DNA from: an uncultured Poribacteria bacterium
Lineage (GTDB): Bacteria > Poribacteria > WGA-4E > WGA-3G
Assembly (NCBI GenBank): GCA_951828515.1
Contig: OX639992.1
Location: 1,952,008-2,016,007 of the forward strand
Direction: 5' to 3'
DNA length: 64,000 nucleotides
Below, one piece after another: positions 2-62,183 of the stretch; positions within the stretch are counted from its first letter, which is position 1, and the number at the start of each line of letters is the position of its first letter. Under the pieces are notes generated by a model. The model searched no databases and was not told where the DNA came from. It worked only from the letters and a program-made list of their open reading frames with translations. The translations under genes and the position numbers were made by a program.

Positions 2-904
2 TTGAACATCGTAAAAGACTCGGGAAACGCCCAAGCAAAAACACTCCGATTTGGGGAACCCCTCTCAAAACACACCTACTTCGGCATTGGCGGCAAAGCC
101 ACTGCTTACATTGAAGTCAGCACGGTAGCAGAATTGGCAGCAGTGGCACGTTTTCATCGGCAGTGGGATGTCCCAGTCGCAATTATTGGTCGTGGCTCAA
201 ATCTGTTGGTGAGCGATACCGGCTTCAATGGCATAGGTGTCAGATTAGTTGGAGAATTAGCGAAACTGGAGGTTGATGGGAACATCGTTTCGGTCGGCGC
301 AGGGCTCTCACTACCGCGACTCTCAAAAGTGATGTCGCGACAGGGGCTGAGCGGTGTGGAATTTGCGCTCGGTATTCCCGGTTCCGTTGGTGGTGCCCTG
401 ATTATGAACGCTGGCGCATGGGGGAGTAGTTTTGGAGATGTCGTCACAGATGTCACGGTCATGAACGATACCGGTGAACTGCTCACCTTAACCCACACTG
501 AGGCAAAATTTGAATACCGACGCAGCGGTTTGGATGCCTATTTCTGTGTCATAGGTGCGACACTGAAACTCGAATCCGGGGACGCTGACGCGATCACGGC
601 ACGGATGCAAACGTTTTACAAACAGAAAGTTGAAACGCAACCCTTCGCCGAAGAGAACGCGGGATGTATGTTCAAAAATCCGCTCGGTGATTCCGCGGGA
701 CGGTTGATCGACATCAGCGGCTTGAAAGGTCACCGTATTGGTGGCGCAGAGGTGTCCACGGTACATGGGAATTTCATTCTCAATATCGACAATGCCACCG
801 CGAGCGATGTGTTGGATTTGGTCGCCTACATCCAAGAACAGGTGCGTGAAAAGACAGGAATCTCCTTACAAACAGAGGTAAAACGGTTGGGATTCGACGA
901 CTAA
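2..904 (+). CDS. murB: UDP-N-acetylenolpyruvoylglucosamine reductase (MurB)
   Basis: MurB is the FAD/NADPH enzyme that reduces UDP-GlcNAc-enolpyruvate to UDP-N-acetylmuramate in cytoplasmic peptidoglycan synthesis. The 300 residues show the FAD-binding GRGSNLLVSD motif (about 63-72), GIPGSVGG (124-131), the EYRRS active-site stretch (171-175) and the C-terminal substrate domain with GCMFKNP (221-227) and LQTEVKRLG near the end. The position usually filled by the general-acid serine in this last region carries Cys222, a substitution I believe also occurs in other MurBs. The first possible start is a TTG at base 2, so the true start may lie upstream of the window. The gene converges on the minus-strand MR-MLE gene, with a palindromic repeat between them that could end both transcripts. 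Confidence 0.93.
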   Translation: MNIVKDSGNAQAKTLRFGEPLSKHTYFGIGGKATAYIEVSTVAELAAVARFHRQWDVPVAIIGRGSNLLVSDTGFNGIGVRLVGELAKLEVDGNIVSVGAGLSLPRLSKVMSRQGLSGVEFALGIPGSVGGALIMNAGAWGSSFGDVVTDVTVMNDTGELLTLTHTEAKFEYRRSGLDAYFCVIGATLKLESGDADAITARMQTFYKQKVETQPFAEENAGCMFKNPLGDSAGRLIDISGLKGHRIGGAEVSTVHGNFILNIDNATASDVLDLVAYIQEQVREKTGISLQTEVKRLGFDD

Positions 905-907
905 TCA

Positions 908-997
908 GCCACTTCGTTGGGAATTCGGTGCGGTTGCAAACCGCACCTACCATGTCTGGGATCGAGACTTATATTTTTCCTAAAATTGACACCTATG
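908..997. repeat. Palindromic repeat between convergent genes
   Basis: A perfect 9-bp stem with a 3-nt loop lies at 927-947 (GGTGCGGTT and its complement). It is followed by the family tail CCTACC..TCTGGG and by a 20-bp motif, TTTCCTAAAATTGACACCTA, at about 976-995 that overlaps the downstream gene's stop codon. The same motif recurs inverted near 31470 and again near 31820. The position between two converging genes suits a bidirectional terminator, but that role is inferred. Confidence 0.75.
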
Positions 998-2186
998 GTC
1001 TGATAACCGTGCCATCCATCCGCCGCACGGGTGCCCAACCGCCGTTGAGTGGGTCCTCTGGAAATGGGAACCGCGCGGCGAGTTCTTCATCTAAATCGAT
1101 GCCGAGCCCTGGTGCCTCATTTACCCAAAAACAGCCCTCTCGAATTTCGGGACAACCGGGGAAGACCTCTTTGGTGTTTTCACCGAAGACATGCTGTTCC
1201 TGAATACCGAAGTTATAGCACGCGAGATCCAGCGCAACGTTGGCGGCATGACCGACCGGCGAAACATCACCAGGACCGTGCCATGCGGTGCGTACACCGA
1301 AGAATTCACAGAACGCGGCGAGTTTACGCGCAGGACTGATACCCCCGATTTGCGAAATATGGACTCGGATGAAGTCGATAAGTCGATCCTTAATAAGATG
1401 AACGTATTCATTCGGGTTATTGAACAATTCACCCATCGCAATTGGGATACTCGTCTGCTGACGCATGAGTTGGAAATAATCAACATCTTCGGGGGCAAAC
1501 GGATCTTCGAGAAAGAAGAGGTTATACGGTTCCAGTCCTTTCGCGAGATTAATCGCTTGGATGGGGGGGATGCGTTCATGCACGTCGTGTAGGAGTTCCA
1601 CTTCATCACCGAGATGTGTCCGCAGATGATCGAAAAGTTTGATGATGGTATTGACATAAGGGGTCGGTTCAAAAGCAGGTGAACTCCGCTTTCCACCGCC
1701 TGCTCCATAGGTCGAATACCCCGGTATTGCCACCTGTGCGCGAACATAGCGATAGCCTTGCTCCATATAACCGCGGATGCTCTCCTCCACCTCTTCAAAA
1801 GTGCCACCGCCAGCGTGCGCATAAAGTGTTGCCGCCTCCCGACATTTACCACCGAGCAATTGGTAGACGGGCATGTTGGCACGCTTGCCCATGATGTCCC
1901 ATAAGGCGATGTCCACACCACTGAGTGCATTGTTGAGCACCGGACCATTTCGCCAATAGGAACTGACGAAACTGGTTTGGAAAATGTCCTCTATGTTCGT
2001 CGGATCTTTCCCAATGAGAAAAGGTTTGAGATACTCATCGACTGCGGTTGCTACAGCGAGTGGACGCTGTGTAAATGTGGCACACCCGATTCCGTATAAA
2101 CCGGGTTCACTCGTTTCGATCTTAACAACAACGAGCCGAGTTCCGTTGGGTGCTGTCAAAATGGTTTTCACATCTGTAATCTTCAT
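993..2186 (-). CDS. Enolase-superfamily (MR-MLE) dehydratase, mannonate dehydratase/RspA-like
   Basis: This is a 397-residue mandelate racemase/muconate lactonizing enzyme, probably a sugar-acid dehydratase of the ManD/RspA group. The three metal ligands are visible as D201 (LLHDVHER), E227 (FFLEDPF) and E253 (AMGELF), and the histidine motif follows in RTAWHGPGDVSPVGH. The N-terminal capping domain begins MKITDVKT, identical to the second MR-MLE gene at 41624-42769. It is the last gene of a minus-strand run with HyuA, a 2-hydroxyacid dehydrogenase and an iron alcohol dehydrogenase, which suggests sugar- or hydroxy-acid catabolism. The start is preceded by AAGGTATAATTAAAAA, a version of the start-proximal repeat seen elsewhere here. 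The exact substrate cannot be read from the sequence. Confidence 0.85.
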   Translation of the reverse strand: MKITDVKTILTAPNGTRLVVVKIETSEPGLYGIGCATFTQRPLAVATAVDEYLKPFLIGKDPTNIEDIFQTSFVSSYWRNGPVLNNALSGVDIALWDIMGKRANMPVYQLLGGKCREAATLYAHAGGGTFEEVEESIRGYMEQGYRYVRAQVAIPGYSTYGAGGGKRSSPAFEPTPYVNTIIKLFDHLRTHLGDEVELLHDVHERIPPIQAINLAKGLEPYNLFFLEDPFAPEDVDYFQLMRQQTSIPIAMGELFNNPNEYVHLIKDRLIDFIRVHISQIGGISPARKLAAFCEFFGVRTAWHGPGDVSPVGHAANVALDLACYNFGIQEQHVFGENTKEVFPGCPEIREGCFWVNEAPGLGIDLDEELAARFPFPEDPLNGGWAPVRRMDGTVIRP

Positions 2187-2267
2187 TTTTTAATTATACC
2201 TTTTTAATAGTTGTCAGTGCGGGTTGCTACGATGGGGAAACACCCTATCAAAAACACCCTTTCAGTT

Positions 2268-2320
2268 TTAACCATCAACTCGTGCCTTAACATTTATAAC
2301 GGAGGCGAGTTGATGGTTAA
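2268..2320. terminator. Long stem-loop after the HyuA gene
   Basis: A perfect 15-bp inverted repeat (2268-2282 TTAACCATCAACTCG and 2306-2320 its complement) encloses a 23-nt loop. It lies about 90-140 nt past the hyuA stop and before the MR-MLE start. The loop is long and there is no clean T-tract, so it may be a foldback repeat or RNA-processing site instead of an intrinsic terminator. Confidence 0.45.
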
Positions 2321-2408
2321 AGTTTTCAGTTAAGAGGTTTCGTTTAACAAATCCGTCTTGTAATTGAAAACCGATAACCAATAACGAATATAAGGAATTC
2401 TCTCACGC

Positions 2409-4601
2409 CTATTTCTTCGCCAAAATAAGATTCTGGTAGGCATCAACAACAGCGGAGAAATTCGGGGGTATTACAGTCGTCGCGCTAAATTCTGTCACAA
2501 TCGCGGGACCTGCGATTTGATTGCCGGGACGCAACGCCTCACGGCGGTAGAAATCGGTTGGGAGTGCTTCACCTTCAAAGATAACAGGATTTTGGGCAGT
2601 AAACGCTTCAGAGGCATCAGTATCGGCGAGTGAAACTGATTGGATAGGAGGTTTGTCGGTTTCCCCAGTGGCTGTAAGTCGTAGGTTCACCACCTCCACT
2701 GGCGCGTCATTTCGGGCATAGCCAAACCGTAATTCATGTGCAGCGTGAAATCTCTCAATAAGCGTCTCTATCTCGGTTGAAGATGCATGTTCCATGGTAA
2801 AACACGGAATATTCAACTCATAAGACTGTCCCTCATACCGCATATCAAGCGAACGGTCAATTTTAAGTTCGTGCGGAGCGAATCCCTCAAATTTCATCTC
2901 GTTCTCTGCGCGGGTCGAGAGTGTGCCAAAACCGGTGTTCAACGCTTTAACAAGACTCCTGCTATCTTCGCCGCTCTTTTCAAATTGCCATAGTACTGTC
3001 TGCGAATAATCTTTAACAACATCTGCAAAGAGCATTCCGTAAGCAGAGAGTAAACCACCATTTGGCGGAATAAGCACTGTCTCAATTCCGAGATTTTCTG
3101 CCATAAATGCGGCATGCAAACCGCCAGCACCTCCGAAGGAAACGAGCGTGAAATCACGTGTATCAAACCCGCGTTCCACAGAAATGACCTTGATGGCACG
3201 TTCCATCGCTGCGTTAGCAACCTTAAGAATGCCATCCGCCGCTTGCATCGGTGGAACACCAAGACGTTTCGCAAGCTCTTCAATGTGTGTCAGCGTCTTA
3301 TCGGAATCCAGGGACATTGCACCCCCTAAAAACTGGGTTGCCGCGATGCGTCCCAAGTAGAGGTTCGCGTCGGTTACCGTGACATCTTCTCCGTTGTTTC
3401 CGTAGCAGATGGGACCTGGATCTGCTCCCGCGCTTTCTGGTCCGACGCGTAGTGCGCCACCGGCATCCACAGTCGCAATAGAACCACCCCCTGCACCGAC
3501 GGTGTGAATATCGATGAGTGGAACTTTGATTGGGAGTCCACTAATCGTGCTCTCGGTTGTGAGGGAGATACCGCCATTGCAGAGACTCACATCCGTTGAA
3601 GTGCCCCCCATATCAAACGTGATGATTTGATCGTAGCCAGCGGTTTTGGCGACTTGATACGCACCAATAACGCCCCCAGCAGGACCGGAAAGGACTGTGC
3701 GGATACCCGCGGATTCACCTCTGTATAGCAAGTTTTCAGCTTGCAAGCTACGCTGAAAAATCTCGGCAGAGATACAACCGCCGTTGGAAAGCATCAAACG
3801 GAACGATTTTTTAATTTTACCTTGCGGAACGGTTTCGTTAAAACCGCGCAGCAAGTCAGAATCCGTCAGCGTAGAGAGATGCCGTTCTAAAGTAGGACGG
3901 ATATACGCGTTCGCTACAGTGGTGCTGAAACGCGCATACTCCCGATATTCCGGTAAAACTTCGTGTGAACATGAAACGGGTATATCAAGCCGCGCAAGGT
4001 GTTTCGCAACAATTTGTTCGTTCTGTGGATTGACGTAGGCAAAGAGGAAACAGACAGCGATGGCATCGAGTTCCAATGTAGCGAGTTTGGACACCAGTGC
4101 CTCTAAATCGCTTGACTCAATCTCCGTTTGGATTTCACCGGTGTGCAGTGTCCGCTCTGATATACCGAAGCGTCTATCGGCAGGGACAAGGGGCGCGGGA
4201 CGTTCCACGAAGAAATCATAGAGGTTCGGACGTGCCTGTCTGCCTATCTCCAAAATGTCCTCAAAATCCTTCGTCGTGACGAGGGCGATACGCGCACCTC
4301 TACGCTCAAGAAGCGCGTTCGTTGCCACCGTCGATCCGTGGACAATGTCCAGCCGTTCGGTATCGGCACCGTGCATACGCAAGATTTCACTCACACCTTG
4401 TATTACAGCGAGAGCAGGGTTCTGCGGTGTGGACAGGACTTTGTGCGTGAATAGGTCGCCATTCATCCGCAGCACAATGTCGGTGAAGGTACCACCCGTA
4501 TCAACTCCGATATTTTTAACTGTGGGGGTTTCTGCTCGATTTTCTCCGTTGTCGAAAATCGGTTTTTGATGAGATTGAGGCTCATCTGGGATCAATTGCA
4601 T
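2409..4601 (-). CDS. HyuA-type N-methylhydantoinase / 5-oxoprolinase subunit A
   Basis: An ATP-dependent hydantoinase/oxoprolinase A-subunit protein of about 730 residues. The N-terminal actin-like ATPase signature is NIGVDTGGTFTDIVL. Later come VHGSTVATNALLERRGA, the GPAGGVIGAYQVA segment, FDMGGTSTDVSL and VSFGGAGGLHA, all typical of HyuA. An upstream ATG at 4649 would overlap the preceding dehydrogenase by 8 nt. I prefer the ATG at 4601, which follows the purine-rich GAAAGAAGAAAAAAG. HyuA usually works with a HyuB partner, but none is next to it here; the gene sits in a sugar/organic-acid dehydrogenase cluster. Either HyuB lies elsewhere or this is an orphan with another substrate. Confidence 0.88.
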   Translation of the reverse strand: MQLIPDEPQSHQKPIFDNGENRAETPTVKNIGVDTGGTFTDIVLRMNGDLFTHKVLSTPQNPALAVIQGVSEILRMHGADTERLDIVHGSTVATNALLERRGARIALVTTKDFEDILEIGRQARPNLYDFFVERPAPLVPADRRFGISERTLHTGEIQTEIESSDLEALVSKLATLELDAIAVCFLFAYVNPQNEQIVAKHLARLDIPVSCSHEVLPEYREYARFSTTVANAYIRPTLERHLSTLTDSDLLRGFNETVPQGKIKKSFRLMLSNGGCISAEIFQRSLQAENLLYRGESAGIRTVLSGPAGGVIGAYQVAKTAGYDQIITFDMGGTSTDVSLCNGGISLTTESTISGLPIKVPLIDIHTVGAGGGSIATVDAGGALRVGPESAGADPGPICYGNNGEDVTVTDANLYLGRIAATQFLGGAMSLDSDKTLTHIEELAKRLGVPPMQAADGILKVANAAMERAIKVISVERGFDTRDFTLVSFGGAGGLHAAFMAENLGIETVLIPPNGGLLSAYGMLFADVVKDYSQTVLWQFEKSGEDSRSLVKALNTGFGTLSTRAENEMKFEGFAPHELKIDRSLDMRYEGQSYELNIPCFTMEHASSTEIETLIERFHAAHELRFGYARNDAPVEVVNLRLTATGETDKPPIQSVSLADTDASEAFTAQNPVIFEGEALPTDFYRREALRPGNQIAGPAIVTEFSATTVIPPNFSAVVDAYQNLILAKK

Positions 4602-46395: not shown

Positions 46396-46974
46396 TTATG
46401 CGAAAGCATTTGTGGATTTCAGAAGCGGACTGGTCGCTTCAATGGAGGTGCCGACAATCCTGTTGAACAGGACAATCGGTCTGACGACTCCTAAGCCAAA
46501 GGAAGCTACCCCTTCCTTGAGAATATTCATCGCAGCGTTCGGGTCGCGGTCGAGGTATGTCTCACACCTCGGACATTGCCAATGACGGTCTGCTAACGTG
46601 AGGGTTTCATTTTTATAGCCACAAACACAGCAGCACTTACTTGTCGGAGACCAGCGATCAATCTTCAACACGGAACGGATACGTTTTTTGCTTTGGTGTT
46701 TGAGTTTCCGCAGGAACTCACCAAAACCAAGGTCAGAGACTTGTTTCCCCCACAAGCGTTTCATACCCGCAATGTTCAGATCTTCAAAGAACAGAATATC
46801 GAACTTTTGGCACAGCTCTATCGCAAGTTTCCAATGGTGGTCCGTTCTCTAGCGGCGGTAATATCGCATAGAGAGTGCCAAAAAGTGATTCCGCACAACG
46901 CCACTGATATTCAACTCGTCGTGCAAGTGGCGCAACGTCTTATCTTTGAAAAGTTTGTGTTTTGTGTTTCGCAT
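46396..46974 (-). pseudogene. tnpB: TnpB pseudogene (IS200/IS605 type)
   Basis: The ORF from 46764 holds the TnpB C-terminus (ILKIDRWSPTSK-like text as VLKIDRWSPTSK, zinc ribbon CCVCGYKN...WQCPRCETYLDRDP). In the same frame upstream, 46974-46852 encodes a TnpB-like N-terminus (MRNTKHKLFKDKTLRHLHDE...), ended by TAG at 46849-46851. The following residues TDHHWKLAIELCQKFDIL join to the C-terminus. So roughly 200 internal residues are missing and a stop is present; the nuclease core is gone. Confidence 0.85.
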
Positions 46975-47149
46975 GGTATATCAAGTATCAAGGCGTTAAC
47001 CCCTAACAAGTGGGTAGGAAACCGACACGTAACCTTGCGATTACGCTTGAACTGTCTGCCAACTTGATACATATATTAAACCACAATTAAGGCTAAATGC
47101 CAACTCTTTTTTTAGGCGTTTGGTCTTTTCCAAGAGGACGGTTTTTCAT

Positions 47150-47188: not shown

Positions 47189-50100
47189 ATGAATGTCTTG
47201 AAAAATCTTATTGAACGTTGCCACCAACGGCACGAAAAACCGTTGCAGCAGCGGCAGACACAGGTAATGTCTGCACCGTATAAGGGTCTTCCTTATCATT
47301 TCACAGTCTATTGCGCACATAGGTATCCTGTGAAACTCTATGAACTCGAAGAGTCAGATATCTCTTTCATGCCAATTGGACACGCTCCTTGGAACGACAA
47401 CGGTCCGCGGGATTTTGGCGGTGAACGCTTCCTGAAAGGCCAAGGTATAGAGGACTGGCTCATCAGACATTGGCACAAATCCTGGGGAATTCAGGTATAT
47501 ACAGGTATTCCATCCGAACACGACGGCGCGCGATGGCATGACATCGATTTTACATACGAAGCGTTATGCGCCGCACCTGATGCTATTTTAGCCTGTATTG
47601 AGACACTCACCAACGCCGTAGTGAACCCACTGTTGACGCTGTCAAAGTCGGGTGGGATCCGCTTCTCTTGCCGAATCCCCGATTACCTTCATCCAAAGGC
47701 CGAGGCGTCCAAGCAGTATATCTATAAGCACACCGCGACCGGAGAACACTCATATCATCAGGACGTATATCTCGAAATTTCTGGAGAAGAGGGTTATAAC
47801 CGCTGGGATGCGCGCTACGAAATCCTGCTTGGAAATTTGTTAGACCCACCTGTCATTGCCAAAGAAATCCTCTTTGCCATTATTGATGCGCTTCGCGCCG
47901 AGCTCCACGATCCTGTTCCGCTTGAAGAAAAAAAACCGAAATTTATACCAAAATCAGTTCCCATTGTGCCCCTATCCCTCGGCTCGTATAACCTTGATCT
48001 CGCAAAACTGGCGTTTATGAAACGCGGGTTTTCCTATGTTCAAGAAGATAATGGCTCTCACTACTGGCTACCAACCGGTAGCAAGGATAACAACACACAG
48101 GTATCGATATGGGAACGCGATGGCACTGTGTGGGTCCGCACATCAACACCTCACGTTGGGTTGCCGATGGAACCTACACTCATCACAGATGTCTGGGACG
48201 ATACCGGCATCTTACCACCGCTACCCGTTACTGGGCTACCTGTCTCTGAAACAGTGCTCGCCGTACGGGAAGGTAAACTAAGCCCATTAGCGATCAAGCG
48301 ACCATCTCCGGTCCTGCACAAACCAGAACACACTGAAAAAGTTTACGAGCCCCTTGAAAAAACTGCCGTTCAGATCCAGCGTGCTTTCGATGGAACCGCA
48401 CGCATTGCCGGACTTATTGCCGAGAAAGGTGCTGGGAAAAGTTACGCAGCAGAATCCTATCTGCTCAATGGTAGGGTAATTAGCCTAAGCGGAGGATACT
48501 GGACAGTAGAAGAAACAGAAGAACGCCTTCATAAGCGAAACGTTTCATCGGTTGCACGCTGGAGATCTCGACGACACCGGTGGGAACAGGTAAAAGATAT
48601 ACCCGTTGAGCAACGGATGGCGAATCCTTTCCAACATGGTAATATCTGTGAAGACCCGGAGCGGTGCGATGCGCTTGAGAAAAAGGGTGAAGACCCGTCT
48701 GAAAGTATTTGTCCAAAGTGTTCCGTTCATACGGAATGTCAGCAACGTGGCTATCTATCTCAACCCGCTACACTACAACGCGCGGATGCACAAATATTGG
48801 GAACATCCGACCTGTTTTTCAATCCGCGACACGCGGTGAAGGTGGCAGAAATTCTCAAACAGACAGATGAAACAGAACGACTCTGTATCATTGATGAAAT
48901 AGAAGCGCATGATCTGTTTCTTGAATGTCAGGTCTCGAAAGATGTATTAGAGGAATGGGGTGTCAACTGGCAAGGGAGTGCCTTAGGAAACTTTGCTAAA
49001 GCCTTACTGAATGTTTTAGAAACCAAAGGGCAACCATACGGTAATGCTGTCAGACGGACCCGCACAGCATTGCAGGCGTTTGAACAACACGAAGAAGAAC
49101 TCATCATACAAATGTGCCAAGTCAACGTGCGGGGTAAAGTCGTTCCACGGGGCATTATTGATGCCGAAACCGGAAAAGAGTTAGCACGCTTTACCATTGA
49201 GTTTGAGGGTGGCACCTCTGCTTACATTCCTCTCGACAATGACGCTGCAGACGGACTCAAGTCAAAGGGATTGCCTTTTTTCTCGCTGGATTCCTCCGTA
49301 ATTAATGCAGAGACGAGGATCCCCATGCAGATGGTGCAAGCGATTGAGTTGGGAATACTTGACCCGTCAACAGTCGAGAACATTCAGACCTTTCCGACTG
49401 TTTATCCGGATCCAAACTGGACACTCTGGCATTGCTTAAAGCATTTCTTTGCGTATTATAAGTGGGACGACGATGCACCGATGATGTGGCATAATAAAAT
49501 TCTGAGGTTCTGGGTGCCACCGGTGTTGCATCCGGATGTCAAGCACCTTTTGTTTATGTCCTCTACCCTTTCCGAGCGAGATTTATGCAGGGTATTCCCG
49601 GGCGAAGAAATCGCTGTTACTCGTATCAAGCCCGCTGCTTGGGTTGCGGGAAACAAGGTTTTCCAGATTCGCACAGGTACCTATTCACAAGAAATACTCT
49701 TAGAACATTACAGCGACTGGAGCGTTACGGGAATATCTAAAACAGGACAGCGTTTTTTTTCCGGTATCCTCGCAGAAATTGAGAGAGATCCGAATGTTAA
49801 GCATGCGGTTATCACCGATAGATCGCTCATCAGACACCTCACAGAGGTCGAAAAAAAAGAGAACGTCTGTTTTGTGACAGATTTCAAACAGTTGGAAAAA
49901 CTGGAAGAAGCTTTTGAAGAAACACACGTCGTATGGATAGTCGGCACACCGATTTGGGAACTCGGAATCATTTGGCGGCGAGCGCAGATTTTGTTTGGAA
50001 ACGACGAAAAACCTCTCTGTTATGAGACAGAAATGACCGCACGTCGTTACAAGGATGAGCGGGTTCAGCGTGTTTATGAAAAAAATATAATTGGCGCGCT

Positions 50101-50596
50101 CAAAGGAATTATAGGACGTATGGGGTTGAGCCACCGGGCTGACAAGAAAGTCGTATTGGTTACCAGCATAAAACTTCCTGATATTACCGACAGAGCTGAA
50201 ACGCTTCTCTTCGACTGGGAAGATTTCGAGGTTGCCGGTAGGTTAGACAAACTCCCTGAAGTGATAACCACGCGCCAACGCTTTGAAATGGAACGTGATC
50301 ATCTAACCCCCGAATCCAGCAGAAAGGAAGTGGAGCGTGTTCTGGGATGCTCTGCAAGGCAAGCGAACCGTGTACTGCAAAAAATTAGGGGTGGGAATAT
50401 TCCACGCGTGCTTTTCCGCGATCAGATTCACGCACTTCTTTCGACCGGCGAAAAAACGACAGGAGAATTGGTTGCAGCCATCAAAGGACATCCAACATCG
50501 GTAAGAAATGAACTCAAGCGTCTTATAGATGCCGGTGAAATTGTAAAGGTCCGGTGGGGCGTGTATAGTTTACCATCCCGCACCAAACACTGCTAA
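47189..50596 (+). CDS. P2: primase-like/helicase/winged-helix fusion
   Basis: A protein of about 1135 residues. The N-terminal domain has a WHDIDF motif at about 117-122 and SGGIRFSC at about 154, reminiscent of AEP-primase acidic motifs but unproven. After an about 110-residue insert comes a P-loop (AEKGAGKSY, 411-419), a cysteine cluster (Cys 487, 493, 508, 511, 517) and Walker B LCIIDEIE (565-572). Further on are SSTLS (791-795) and a GR pair at about 977. This order resembles XPD/DinG-type SF2 helicases. The tail is a winged helix (about 1072-1127). Start ATG 47189 matches paralogue starts; an upstream ATG at 47120 would read through the hairpin. It is the only family member with intact ATPase motifs. 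Confidence 0.78.
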   Translation: MNVLKNLIERCHQRHEKPLQQRQTQVMSAPYKGLPYHFTVYCAHRYPVKLYELEESDISFMPIGHAPWNDNGPRDFGGERFLKGQGIEDWLIRHWHKSWGIQVYTGIPSEHDGARWHDIDFTYEALCAAPDAILACIETLTNAVVNPLLTLSKSGGIRFSCRIPDYLHPKAEASKQYIYKHTATGEHSYHQDVYLEISGEEGYNRWDARYEILLGNLLDPPVIAKEILFAIIDALRAELHDPVPLEEKKPKFIPKSVPIVPLSLGSYNLDLAKLAFMKRGFSYVQEDNGSHYWLPTGSKDNNTQVSIWERDGTVWVRTSTPHVGLPMEPTLITDVWDDTGILPPLPVTGLPVSETVLAVREGKLSPLAIKRPSPVLHKPEHTEKVYEPLEKTAVQIQRAFDGTARIAGLIAEKGAGKSYAAESYLLNGRVISLSGGYWTVEETEERLHKRNVSSVARWRSRRHRWEQVKDIPVEQRMANPFQHGNICEDPERCDALEKKGEDPSESICPKCSVHTECQQRGYLSQPATLQRADAQILGTSDLFFNPRHAVKVAEILKQTDETERLCIIDEIEAHDLFLECQVSKDVLEEWGVNWQGSALGNFAKALLNVLETKGQPYGNAVRRTRTALQAFEQHEEELIIQMCQVNVRGKVVPRGIIDAETGKELARFTIEFEGGTSAYIPLDNDAADGLKSKGLPFFSLDSSVINAETRIPMQMVQAIELGILDPSTVENIQTFPTVYPDPNWTLWHCLKHFFAYYKWDDDAPMMWHNKILRFWVPPVLHPDVKHLLFMSSTLSERDLCRVFPGEEIAVTRIKPAAWVAGNKVFQIRTGTYSQEILLEHYSDWSVTGISKTGQRFFSGILAEIERDPNVKHAVITDRSLIRHLTEVEKKENVCFVTDFKQLEKLEEAFEETHVVWIVGTPIWELGIIWRRAQILFGNDEKPLCYETEMTARRYKDERVQRVYEKNIIGALKGIIGRMGLSHRADKKVVLVTSIKLPDITDRAETLLFDWEDFEVAGRLDKLPEVITTRQRFEMERDHLTPESSRKEVERVLGCSARQANRVLQKIRGGNIPRVLFRDQIHALLSTGEKTTGELVAAIKGHPTSVRNELKRLIDAGEIVKVRWGVYSLPSRTKHC

Positions 50597-57623: not shown

Positions 57624-60600
57624 CTATCGCATTGACATCCGCACGGGGGTCTCTAATTTCCGACGCAGGACAACACCCCACTGTCCAACAACCCACAACG
57701 TCTTACCATCTTTGGAACGGGTGATGACATAAAGATTGTTGTCAATATCGGTGTGCTCCTGCTCCCACGTTTCACCCCCATCAGTTGAACGAATAATCGT
57801 TCCTTCTTCACCGACGGCGTAGACCACCTGATCTGAGAGTGCGACGATGCCGTGTAGGTTCTTGGTAACCCCAGTCAATTTAGGTTGCCATGTAAAACCG
57901 CCATCGGTTGTCTTTAGGACGATACCTGCTTCACCGGTTGCCCATCCTGTCCGCTTGGCGATAAATGAGACCGCATTGAGATCGTAATTCGACTTGGTCT
58001 CATGCATCCGCCAATACTCACCACTGTTGATGGTGCGTTGGGTTACCCCGCCTTGTCCGACTGCCCAACCGAGGGGTGCGAATTTCATATCCACATCCAT
58101 AAGTGTGTCATTTGCAGTGGTGCGCTGAGGTGTCCACGTGGGACCGCCATCTTTGTTATGGATAATATATCCGAGTCTACCGACTGCCCAGCCTTCAGAA
58201 AACTTACCGAAGTCAACATCGTTCAGCGAGAATGTACCGGGTGGATCGCCTTCCATGAAAGGCGGTTGCTCAGGCGTATCCCCGGCTGTCCAAATCGCGC
58301 CATCTGTCGTATAGAGGACCGTTCCGTCACGTTGCATTGCCCACCCCCATTTTTCAGGTTCGAGACTCGCAAAGTGTACCCCGATGAGGCGTTGACGCGT
58401 CCGACTTGGAAGCGTCTCCCACGTCTGTCCACTGTCTTGGGTTTCGAGTAGGACGCCGCTGTCCCCTGCTATCCAACCGTTTTTGTCATCGTAGAAGAGG
58501 ACCTTTCGGAAGTCATTACGCTGCTGTTCACCGAGTTGACGTTCCCATGTCTCTCCACCGTCTGCGGTGTGGTAGATACTGCCGCCACTTCCAACAGCCC
58601 ATGCGTGCTCTGCATCCAAGAAATATACGCTGGCGACTCGGCGTGCCCCGCGTCTGCGGCGTCCTTCGGGGGCTGGTGGTGGAGGGGGTTGTTGTTGCCG
58701 AGGTGCGGGTGAAGGAGTCGCCCGTTCGGCATTAGGCGGGAGCTCGCCTTCAGGAGCGAAACGCCCGGGACGTTGCCACTGCGCTCGCAACCGATTTTGA
58801 ATTTCCTCTGGTGTCTCGTCATACGTTAACGTCGGTCCCTCTGCGACCTCTTCCTCCTCTTCCTCTGTTGGGTCTTCCTCCACTTCTGGCTCGGCTTCTT
58901 CAAGCATCTCTGTTTCAGTTTCCCATAAGGCGAACATATCGTCTCCTGTAGCGACAGGAACAGGTTCCCAATTCACGCCTTGATCTCTGGTGATATAAGC
59001 ACCATCGCCACCGAGCCCCCAAGCATTGGTATGCGAACGGAAGGTAATGCGCCGTAAGCCGCGCGTGCTCTGTGCCGTGGTCTGCAATCTCCACGTTTCA
59101 CCACCGTCCTCAGTCAACAAAGAGTTGCCGTTGCCGAGAATTACCCAACCGCGATTTTCGTCAGCGAAATGGACAGCAATACCGGGCTGATTCGTTTTTG
59201 CCTGAATTTTCCAGTAGTCGCCACCATCAACGGTATGGAGAATAAACCCACCGTCTCGACGCTGCGGAGTGACCGCCCACCCCATCTGACTATTGACAAA
59301 GTGGAGATCAGTGATGTTTGCCGTTGTCGTTCCAGTCTTTTGGATTTTCCATGTCTTGCCGCTATCGGTCGTATGTAAGGTCTGTCCAATCCTGGCACCG
59401 AGCCATCCCTCTTCGGCATTTAGGAAGTACATTGTGCTGACGCGTGGCAGGTTCTGCTTGGTTGCCTGAAGAATCGGTTTCCACGTTTCACCCCCATTTT
59501 CGGTCTGAAGTAAGATACCAGATCCAAGGATTCGTCCATGCTTTTCGTCAGAAAATTCGACCTGTTGCAGATCCTCAGTGACACCACTGTGTTGAGGCAA
59601 CCACGTCTTACCGCCGTCTGTGGTATGCGCAATTGCCCCACCCGAACCGACTGCCCATCCGTTCTGCGTATTCACGAAATGGGTATCGGCGAAATTCGTT
59701 CGCCAAGTTGCTTGACGGATAATGTCCCAATGATAGGCAACGGGTTCAACAGGGGTTTCCGCTTCAGCCGTAACCACCTCTGGTTCTTGAGCAACAGGTG
59801 GCAATTTTGCTGGCAATTCTGCCTCTTCAATAGAGTAGCGCATCGCAATTCCGCCCTTACCGACAGCGACGACACCATCGGGTGAGAGTGCCAGCCCATA
59901 CAGGTCGTTGCCGGTGCCGCTCTCTTGCATTTCCCACTTTTTGCCGCCGTTGACGGTGGTAAGCATTACACCCTTATCGCCGACGATTAATCCGTGTTGT
60001 GTACCAGCAAAATAGAGTTTATTCAGATTCTCTTGCGTGCCGCTGCGCTGAAAATTCCAACGCTTTCCACCGTCTTTTGTATGCAGAATTTCGCCAAACT
60101 GTCCGACAATCCACCCTATGTTTTCATCTACGAAGTAAACGGCATAGAGTTCATTGAAAGTGCCGGTCGTCTGCTGATTCCATGTCAAACCCCCATCTTC
60201 CGTCGTGAGGCAAACACCGGGCCATCCAATTGCCCACCCCTTCTTTTCATCAAGAAAAAACACACCCTTCAGCATCAAAGAAAGAAAATCGCCCGTGGCG
60301 GTTTGTTGAAGCCATGTTTCGCCGCCATCAATTGTGTGTAGGATACTACCGAGATCTCCGACGATCCAGCCGACTTGAGGACTCACAAAGTGGACAGCAC
60401 GGAGTGCAAATGCAGAAGGACCACGCTGACGCTCCCAATTCGCACCGCCATCATTGGTATGAACAATAAGACCTCGATCACCAACCGCCCAGCCGTGTTT
60501 ATCCGTTGCGAAATAGATATTCCAGATGCCGTCCCAGATATCAGTCTCAATTTCGCTCCAAGTTTGTCCGCCATCATTGCTCATCGCCATCGTGCCACGC

Positions 60601-61742
60601 TTGCCGACTGCGATTGCGCGGTTCGCATCCGTAAACTGGACGTTCTGCAGGTCATTTGCAGTAGTTCCACTGGTCATCTCCCACGTCGCACCCGCATCCG
60701 TCGTGTGCAAAATAGTACCGTACCACCCAACTGCCCATGCCTCTGTGGGCGTCGTAAACTGGATTCCTGTCAAATTGTTTTCGGTTCCACTTTCCATCAA
60801 TTGCCAGTTGTCACCCCCGTCCTCGGTACGCGTAATAAAGCCGACATCTGCCACGGCGATCCCGTAATTTTCATCTGTGAAATGGATACCGTTGATAGTA
60901 TCCCGGACATGCCCATTAATCAGCGGGATACGACTGTCTTGACGCTCCCAATTAATACCGCCGTTTGCCGTGTGGAAGATAGATCCATCACTACCGACAA
61001 TCCAGCCTTCATTATCGCTAACGAAGAAGACCTGTTTATTGTCATTAATCATCCGGTCGCGCTCACCCGCAAAGCGATTGCTCTGTTCCCGCCACGATTC
61101 ACCACCGGTTTTAGTGTGAAGAATCCTGTCATGGGTACCGACAACCCATCCCATCGAATCATTAACGAACCAGACACCGTTGAGCATAAATTCACTGACG
61201 TACTCGTACCGTTTCCACTCTTTTCCGCCATTCTTGGTGTAGAGGACATCCGAATCTTCCCCAACAATCCAACCCTCTTTTGAATTGGCAAAAAAGACAT
61301 CAAGGAGCATCGCGGAAGTACCACTCCGCTGCAAGGTCCAATGTTTACCACCATCGTCGGTTGCTGCAACTAACCCTTCATCGCCGACTGCCCAACCGTA
61401 ATTCGCGTTCGTGAAGTAAACCGCTTTGAAATCTAACGAGGCATCAGGCAGACGAAATCCTGGGCTTGTTGTATCGACTTCTTGTTGCTTCCACGTCTTT
61501 CCGCCATCTGCAGTATGGATAATCAGTCCCTGCTGCCCGACAACCCATCCCTGTTTATGATTGACGAATTGCAAATCGGTGAAGTGTGTCTCCCAATCCG
61601 CCTTCCGAGTTGCCTCCATCTTGACACAACCGTTAAAAAGGAACAAGATGCCAAAGAAGAGAAGTACCATGACAAAACTATTAACAGCAAGTTTTGACTT
61701 ATAATACACGCCAAAACGGGTCAGACTACGTATCAAACGCAT
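57624..61742 (-). CDS. Giant YCF48/BNR-repeat lipoprotein
   Basis: A lipoprotein of about 1372 residues (start MRLIRSLTRFG at 61742, after CGGAGGTAAAA; lipobox FLFNGC). By eye I count about 27 blades of the pattern GWAVGxxGxIxHTxDGGxTW, in two blocks separated by a Glu-rich/Pro-rich linker (TEEEEEEVAEGPT, QQPPPPPAPEG). Such repeats form propellers like the plant/cyanobacterial YCF48 and BNR families. The long array suggests several propellers on a lipid anchor. It lies next to the VWA gene. The ORF extends 35 codons upstream, but no signal peptide would then be placed at the start. Confidence 0.9.
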   Translation of the reverse strand: MRLIRSLTRFGVYYKSKLAVNSFVMVLLFFGILFLFNGCVKMEATRKADWETHFTDLQFVNHKQGWVVGQQGLIIHTADGGKTWKQQEVDTTSPGFRLPDASLDFKAVYFTNANYGWAVGDEGLVAATDDGGKHWTLQRSGTSAMLLDVFFANSKEGWIVGEDSDVLYTKNGGKEWKRYEYVSEFMLNGVWFVNDSMGWVVGTHDRILHTKTGGESWREQSNRFAGERDRMINDNKQVFFVSDNEGWIVGSDGSIFHTANGGINWERQDSRIPLINGHVRDTINGIHFTDENYGIAVADVGFITRTEDGGDNWQLMESGTENNLTGIQFTTPTEAWAVGWYGTILHTTDAGATWEMTSGTTANDLQNVQFTDANRAIAVGKRGTMAMSNDGGQTWSEIETDIWDGIWNIYFATDKHGWAVGDRGLIVHTNDGGANWERQRGPSAFALRAVHFVSPQVGWIVGDLGSILHTIDGGETWLQQTATGDFLSLMLKGVFFLDEKKGWAIGWPGVCLTTEDGGLTWNQQTTGTFNELYAVYFVDENIGWIVGQFGEILHTKDGGKRWNFQRSGTQENLNKLYFAGTQHGLIVGDKGVMLTTVNGGKKWEMQESGTGNDLYGLALSPDGVVAVGKGGIAMRYSIEEAELPAKLPPVAQEPEVVTAEAETPVEPVAYHWDIIRQATWRTNFADTHFVNTQNGWAVGSGGAIAHTTDGGKTWLPQHSGVTEDLQQVEFSDEKHGRILGSGILLQTENGGETWKPILQATKQNLPRVSTMYFLNAEEGWLGARIGQTLHTTDSGKTWKIQKTGTTTANITDLHFVNSQMGWAVTPQRRDGGFILHTVDGGDYWKIQAKTNQPGIAVHFADENRGWVILGNGNSLLTEDGGETWRLQTTAQSTRGLRRITFRSHTNAWGLGGDGAYITRDQGVNWEPVPVATGDDMFALWETETEMLEEAEPEVEEDPTEEEEEEVAEGPTLTYDETPEEIQNRLRAQWQRPGRFAPEGELPPNAERATPSPAPRQQQPPPPPAPEGRRRRGARRVASVYFLDAEHAWAVGSGGSIYHTADGGETWERQLGEQQRNDFRKVLFYDDKNGWIAGDSGVLLETQDSGQTWETLPSRTRQRLIGVHFASLEPEKWGWAMQRDGTVLYTTDGAIWTAGDTPEQPPFMEGDPPGTFSLNDVDFGKFSEGWAVGRLGYIIHNKDGGPTWTPQRTTANDTLMDVDMKFAPLGWAVGQGGVTQRTINSGEYWRMHETKSNYDLNAVSFIAKRTGWATGEAGIVLKTTDGGFTWQPKLTGVTKNLHGIVALSDQVVYAVGEEGTIIRSTDGGETWEQEHTDIDNNLYVITRSKDGKTLWVVGQWGVVLRRKLETPVRMSMR

Positions 61743-62183
61743 TTTTACCTCCGGTCGTTGTTCTTTTGCGCAAGCCGAGGAAATGACTTGGATTTTTTCT
61801 CGCATGCAAAATGGGTTCCTGTTCTGTGCGCCGTCCGACTTACTCACCTAAACTGGACATACGCAGTCCCGAAGAAACACGTGGATCTCGTACTACGGGC
61901 TTCCTCTAAATTCTTAGATTAAATCGCAGCAAATTCCGTGCCAGTCCGAACAATACTGTACTAACGGGATTCCTCAGCGAAATGTTAGAAAGCCTTGCAC
62001 AAAATGGGGCAGGGTCTACATGCCACTATCCAAAACAGTGCAGATTTGACCAGTCGTTAGGGATACTGCAGAAAATCTATCAAGTCGAATTTACATCAAG
62101 GTACTTAGACAGACTTCTCTAACCTTTTGTTCATCTTAAGTGATAACGCAAGTTGCCACTTATTTATAGACATAGCACCCCTA
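61743..62183. other. Gene-free stretch upstream of the YCF48 lipoprotein
   Basis: About 440 bp with no convincing ORF, tRNA or repeat until the MITE at 62184. It probably holds the lipoprotein promoter. Confidence 0.4.

Follow-up and report, generated by a model that had tools for sequence, protein, structure and literature searches.

P0001 encodes an AEP-like primase domain followed by a linker, an XPD/DinG-like SF2 helicase with a cysteine cluster, and a C-terminal helix-turn-helix (HTH)/winged helix. The reading that we favor, and regard as rather probable, is that this gene belongs to a domesticated chromosomal family specific to Poribacteria, and that this family either arose from the primase-helicase of integrated plasmids of the same phylum or is closely related to it by common ancestry. 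The host is a sponge-dwelling Candidatus Poribacteria whose genome (G000) is a single contig of 5.85 Mb, and the window, namely, the whole stretch of 64,000 nucleotides that was analyzed, is G000:C1:1952008-2016007. The features are listed in Table 1.

An earlier note, made from the letters of this DNA, had drawn attention to the open reading frame at 47189-50596 (1135 aa), and this frame proved to be real. The start codon ATG at 47189 was favored over TTG at 47120, because homology with the paralogs begins at the former. The motifs named in that note were all recovered within 1-2 residues, namely, WHDIDF, SGGIRFSC, AEKGAGKSY (411-419), DEIE (569-572), SSTLS, and the winged helix, and its five-cysteine cluster corresponds to Cys 487, 493, 508, 511, and 517, four of which are invariant where the region is present. 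Among the 97 family members, R158 is conserved in 96, D118 in 94, D207 in 94, and Cys487, Cys508, Cys511, and Cys517 in 80 of the 80 that have the region, indicating that these motifs do not occur by chance.

Table 1. Features of P0001 and its paralogs in the window (positions count from the first letter of the window; residue numbers are those of P0001)
Feature	Position	Strand	Remark
Whole gene P0001	47189..50596	+	1135 aa + stop; AlphaFold2 pLDDT 81, pTM 0.75
AEP primase-like domain, residues ~22-242	47252..47914	+	separate model; top VIA matches are AEP primases, model range 39..240
AEP motif I candidate WHDIDF (116-121), D118 and D120	47534..47551	+	aligns with DLDF/DFDI of plasmid-type relatives
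AEP motif II candidate SGGIRFSC (154-161), Arg158 replacing His	47648..47671	+	R158 in 96/97 members
AEP motif III candidate W206-D207	47804..47809	+	D207 in 94/97 members
Linker/small domain (243-386)	47915..48346	+	position of the zinc-binding segment of plasmid-type relatives
XPD/DinG-like SF2 helicase, residues 387-1037	48347..50299	+	structural matches (Foldseek, VIA)
Walker A AEKGAGKS (411-418)	48419..48442	+	strict form in 25/97 members
Cysteine cluster C487-x5-C493-x14-C508-x2-C511-x5-C517, between Walker A and Walker B	48647..48739	+	probable Fe-S site
Walker B CIIDEIE (566-572)	48884..48904	+	sequence and family alignment
Arch-like segment (658-745)	49160..49423	+	missing from every member without the cysteine region
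Motif III-like SSTLS (791-795)	49559..49573	+	
Motif VI region GIIGRMG (973-979)	50105..50125	+	QAxxRxR in plasmid-type relatives
C-terminal helix-turn-helix and winged helix (1045-1128)	50321..50572	+	AbiEi-like, sub-threshold; winged helix proper at ~1076-1128
Tandem paralog, 976 aa	51204..54134	+	without cysteine and arch-like segments and without Walker A
Paralog, 783 aa	20468..22819	+	without P-loop, cysteine, and arch-like segments

The fold of the N-terminal part was examined in predicted structures. An AlphaFold2 model of the whole protein was built on 47 family members, and the first 282 residues were also modeled alone (pLDDT 72.6). As determined by VIA, the best match of the latter model was pRN1 ORF904 (1rni; rmsd 4.3 Å, 164 residues aligned) with a Z of 7.2, a Z of about 7 being a level that can reflect a mere common arrangement. 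NrS-1 (7rr4, Z 5.9) came next, followed by LigD-Pol, Prim-PolC, and PriS; ranks 1-29 were all occupied by AEP enzymes, and the first non-AEP structure appeared at rank 30. The order of strands and helices and the positions of D118/D120, R158, and D207 fit AEP motifs I, II, and III, respectively, and D118, D120, and D207 make up the AEP metal-ligand pattern. Hence, at the level of predicted structure and with a moderate Z, residues ~39-240 would adopt an AEP/Prim-Pol fold; the suggestion of an AEP-like primase, which the earlier note had itself called weak, therefore holds for the model of the domain alone. ORF904 resembles P0001 in being its best N-terminal structural match and is part of a plasmid replication protein; however, the identity is ~13%, the motif II His is replaced by Arg in P0001, and the helicases are different. 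AEP motif II varies by family, being His in most and Gln or Tyr in some, and Arg/Lys at this position has been reported for the DR0530-like AEP family (PMC5862659). Arg158 represents this DR0530-like form. It is highly improbable that the N-terminal domain is no kin of primases and has another ferredoxin-like or Rep-like fold: although the Z is moderate, the second acidic residue of motif I varies within the family, and the His of motif II is replaced, AEPs top the structural ranking above the unrelated entries, relatives carry DLD/DFD and the R where they are expected, and a sister protein carries PF08800, which is an AEP family.

For residues 387-1037, XPD and DinG structures ranked first in the Foldseek search against the PDB (9p55, 1.2e-10), and VIA matched this part to 2vl7 (Z 13.5) and to DinG 6fws (Z 13.1). 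Two RecA domains in the XPD/DinG arrangement were observed in the predicted structure. The structural matches across this range bear out the earlier claim of an XPD/DinG-like helicase; both refutation checks proposed along with it, for a non-primase N-terminal fold and for a helicase misaligned with SF2, were run, and the architecture stood. The four invariant cysteines lie between Walker A and Walker B, with C493 being present in 70 of the 80 members that have the region, and this pattern suggests that the cluster is probably an Fe-S site. All 17 Cys-less members have lost the arch-like segment as well, and in seven members the arch-like segment is the only one of the two that is missing; the coupled loss is what is expected if both segments form an XPD-like pore. 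Motif VI of XPD/DinG helicases is of the QxxGRxxR type and carries catalytic arginines. In the corresponding GIIGRMG of P0001, one Arg remains, and the Gln and the second Arg found in plasmid-type relatives are missing. Like the XPD/DinG helicases (DinG, YoaA, and CasDinG), P0001 has two RecA domains, an arch-like insertion, and a cysteine domain located after Walker A and before Walker B; unlike them, it has an AEP domain in front and a winged helix behind, its motif VI is degraded, and most of its paralogs have lost the P-loop. P0001 is, as modeled, built like an XPD/DinG helicase, and we do not claim its membership among the active helicases. CasDinG, too, is reported to have a vestigial FeS domain (PMC10450177).

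Approximately nine copies of the family are carried by the G000 chromosome, three of them in the window, and the full-length paralogs share 57-64% protein identity with P0001. A match was obtained in 33 of the 38 genomes of the same genus, of which G018 has a plasmid-type relative only, so that the family itself is present in 32 of 38; in a second Poribacteria genus it is present in 16 of 18 genomes. All the relatives found belong to Candidatus Poribacteria, and no family member outside the two genera was detected among the other genomes in the collections searched. Tandem arrays of four family genes each were observed on other Poribacteria chromosomes (L042, 161-13414; L039, 1-13405). Besides the full-length proteins there are shortened ones, which are without the cysteine region and the arch-like segment; seven of these are also without the P-loop. 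The second acid of motif I (position 120) is D/E in 62 of the 97 members, and Walker A is kept in just about one-fourth of the family, which a single-sequence view could not reveal. Motif I D/E, motif III D, Walker A, and Walker B DE occur together in only 14 of the 97 members, including P0001, which carries both Walker A and Walker B DE. To judge from its residues, P0001 is among the better-preserved copies, yet not fully canonical.

No Pfam match to P0001 reached the cut-off, and no convincing sequence match was obtained in PHROGs, NCBIfam, PDB sequences, plasmids, phages, or IMG/VR. Our literature searches found no report of the family.

The loci of the family are fixed. Old orthologous groups that span genomes and both genera were resolved in the family tree, and each group has its own conserved neighbors, these being metabolic or housekeeping genes. 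A neighbor gene common to all paralog groups was sought but not found, and no integrase or Rep genes adjoin the chromosomal copies. With no shared flanks, with chromosomal neighbors, and with loci orthologous across genera, the P0001 family was not found to reside in an integrated mobile element. Paralogs are homologous from start codon to stop codon and not beyond, and neither terminal repeats nor target-site duplications were seen at the gene edges. The P0001 spot is flanked by a laminin-G-like gene and an SNF2 gene and holds two copies in G000, one in G047, and none in several genomes; at the empty site of G040, a relic of the gene end was seen by eye in the sequence. A mobile gene-sized element was rejected, because homology ends at the open reading frame, no terminal repeats or target-site duplications came to light, and the empty site of G040 is a deletion with a relic. 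The family dynamics is birth-and-death of fixed genes, with loss by deletion, and not transposition.

Pairwise dN/dS between orthologs was 0.19-0.29, whether or not Walker A was intact, which is ~2- to 6-fold that of the neighboring genes (0.04-0.14). That the copies are functionless, decaying remains of many integrated plasmids is very unlikely: some copies do carry stops or frameshifts and one empty site holds a relic, but uninterrupted frames of about 800-1150 codons are in the majority, purifying selection acts on them, as a pairwise dN/dS of <1 indicates, and their loci are common to both genera with no integrase or Rep genes beside them. Between P0001 and its G047 ortholog, dN/dS, which carries large errors for regions this small, was 0.09 for the cysteine region, 0.10 for the C-terminal HTH/winged helix, 0.18 for the AEP domain, 0.26-0.29 for the arch and RecA2, 0.36 for the linker, and 0.45, the highest value, for the Walker A part. 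This order fits a protein in which the motor may matter least, and the cysteine domain together with the ends for DNA and nucleotide binding most.

These values also bear on whether P0001 itself could be a fully active, self-contained primase-helicase for DNA replication or repair, with the decayed paralogs as side branches. Its place among the 14 members that keep the four motifs and the GDGKS and DLD retained by its G047 ortholog argue for such activity; nevertheless, motif VI is degraded and the Walker A part is the least constrained, and we consider this explanation rather doubtful. Of the interpretation in the earlier note, the architecture was thus upheld, whereas the "self-contained DNA replication or repair machine" was not established, given the degraded motif VI, the many paralogs (most of them) without a functional P-loop, and the chromosomal multigene family to which P0001 belongs.

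In more remote relatives within the phylum, this helicase is fused to an AEP, BT4734-type, or TOPRIM primase. L104 and L105 have a P0001-type N-terminal domain with motif I DFD/DLD and the P-loop GKT, and L105 gave no convincing match in plasmids or phages. L094 (= L029) joins a BT4734-like_N AEP domain (3.1e-12) to the same helicase, and it matched plasmid and phage sequences through the BT4734-like N terminus only. Positions 1413-10967 of L094 are an integrated plasmid-like stretch with a tyrosine recombinase (phage integrase), a Rep3 initiator, a DNA methyltransferase, and the BT4734-like primase fused to the cysteine helicase. In L149, which belongs to another family of the order, a 1285-aa protein (264-4118, minus strand) has a zinc ribbon and a DUF3854/TOPRIM primase domain before a helicase related to that of the P0001 family, i.e., the helicase is joined to a second primase type. 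A mobile-element context is evident for L094, whereas for L105 there are no more than hints of one. A Rep3 gene beside L105 had been guessed from a length equal to that of the L094 Rep3 and was rejected; the 439-aa neighbor is a Dam-type methyltransferase. Together, L104/L105, L094, and L149 indicate that the module is a primase-helicase of plasmid-like elements, and we infer that the chromosomal family descends from such a module. This direction is drawn from the fuller motif set of the plasmid-type copies and not from a well-rooted tree.

Bacterial AEP primases of the PrimPol-PV1 supergroup have been reported to be located almost exclusively on mobile elements, and the plasmid and prophage AEP primase-helicase fusions of the PrimPol-PV1 supergroup and the BT4734-like type resemble P0001 in having an N-terminal AEP domain, a middle P-loop helicase, and a C-terminal winged helix (PMC5862659). 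The P0001 family differs from them in its XPD/DinG-type helicase with a cysteine cluster and in being chromosomally fixed and multicopy, not on integrated elements.

Given that the motor was given up in many paralogs, and the pore too in some, the core of the protein would be DNA binding and the AEP domain. The winged helix would place the protein on host DNA, the Fe-S/arch pore of the helicase part may hold single-stranded DNA, and the helicase part could move on DNA with ATP where Walker A survives. The AEP domain might bind metal and nucleotide and make or extend short primers, for example, in replication restart, and replication restart or related maintenance would probably be the task of the family. 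The chief functional alternative is that the family interferes with incoming plasmids, as an anti-plasmid/anti-phage device that binds incoming replicons and jams their replication. Birth-and-death turnover, tandem arrays, a dN/dS above that of neighboring genes, and kinship with plasmid primase-helicases are consistent with such a device, but there are no defense-system neighbors in the metabolic and housekeeping surroundings and PADLOC gives a weak AbiEi-like winged helix only, making it unlikely in our view. A defense-island gene was rejected as a candidate on the same two grounds.

Returning to domestication, we tentatively propose that a plasmid primase-helicase gave rise in this lineage to a large family, fixed at multiple loci, in which the motor can be dispensed with, and that the winged helix, the cysteine domain, and the primase fold may serve a host function unknown from other bacteria, such as repriming at forks that have stalled or the jamming of replicons that enter the cell. 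If true, a chromosomal AEP + XPD/DinG family that is vertically inherited, has duplicated repeatedly, and is maintained by selection despite the loss of ATPase motifs would clearly exemplify domestication. It raises the testable question of what role a primase fold plays in a host without its motor, and the coupled loss of the cysteine domain and arch-like segment would offer a naturally occurring test of the XPD-type pore.

Two other features of the window were observed. Upstream of P0001, at 46396-46764 on the minus strand, a 122-aa frame is a TnpB C-terminal remnant (PF07282 TNB domain, 4.4e-18); it is flanked on both sides by CCCCCGAATGAATTCGGGGG hairpins, is absent at the G047 locus, and looks like an IS200/IS605-type remnant. 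At 57624-61847, also on the minus strand, a 1407-aa protein with YCF48/BNR-type beta-propeller repeats is encoded.
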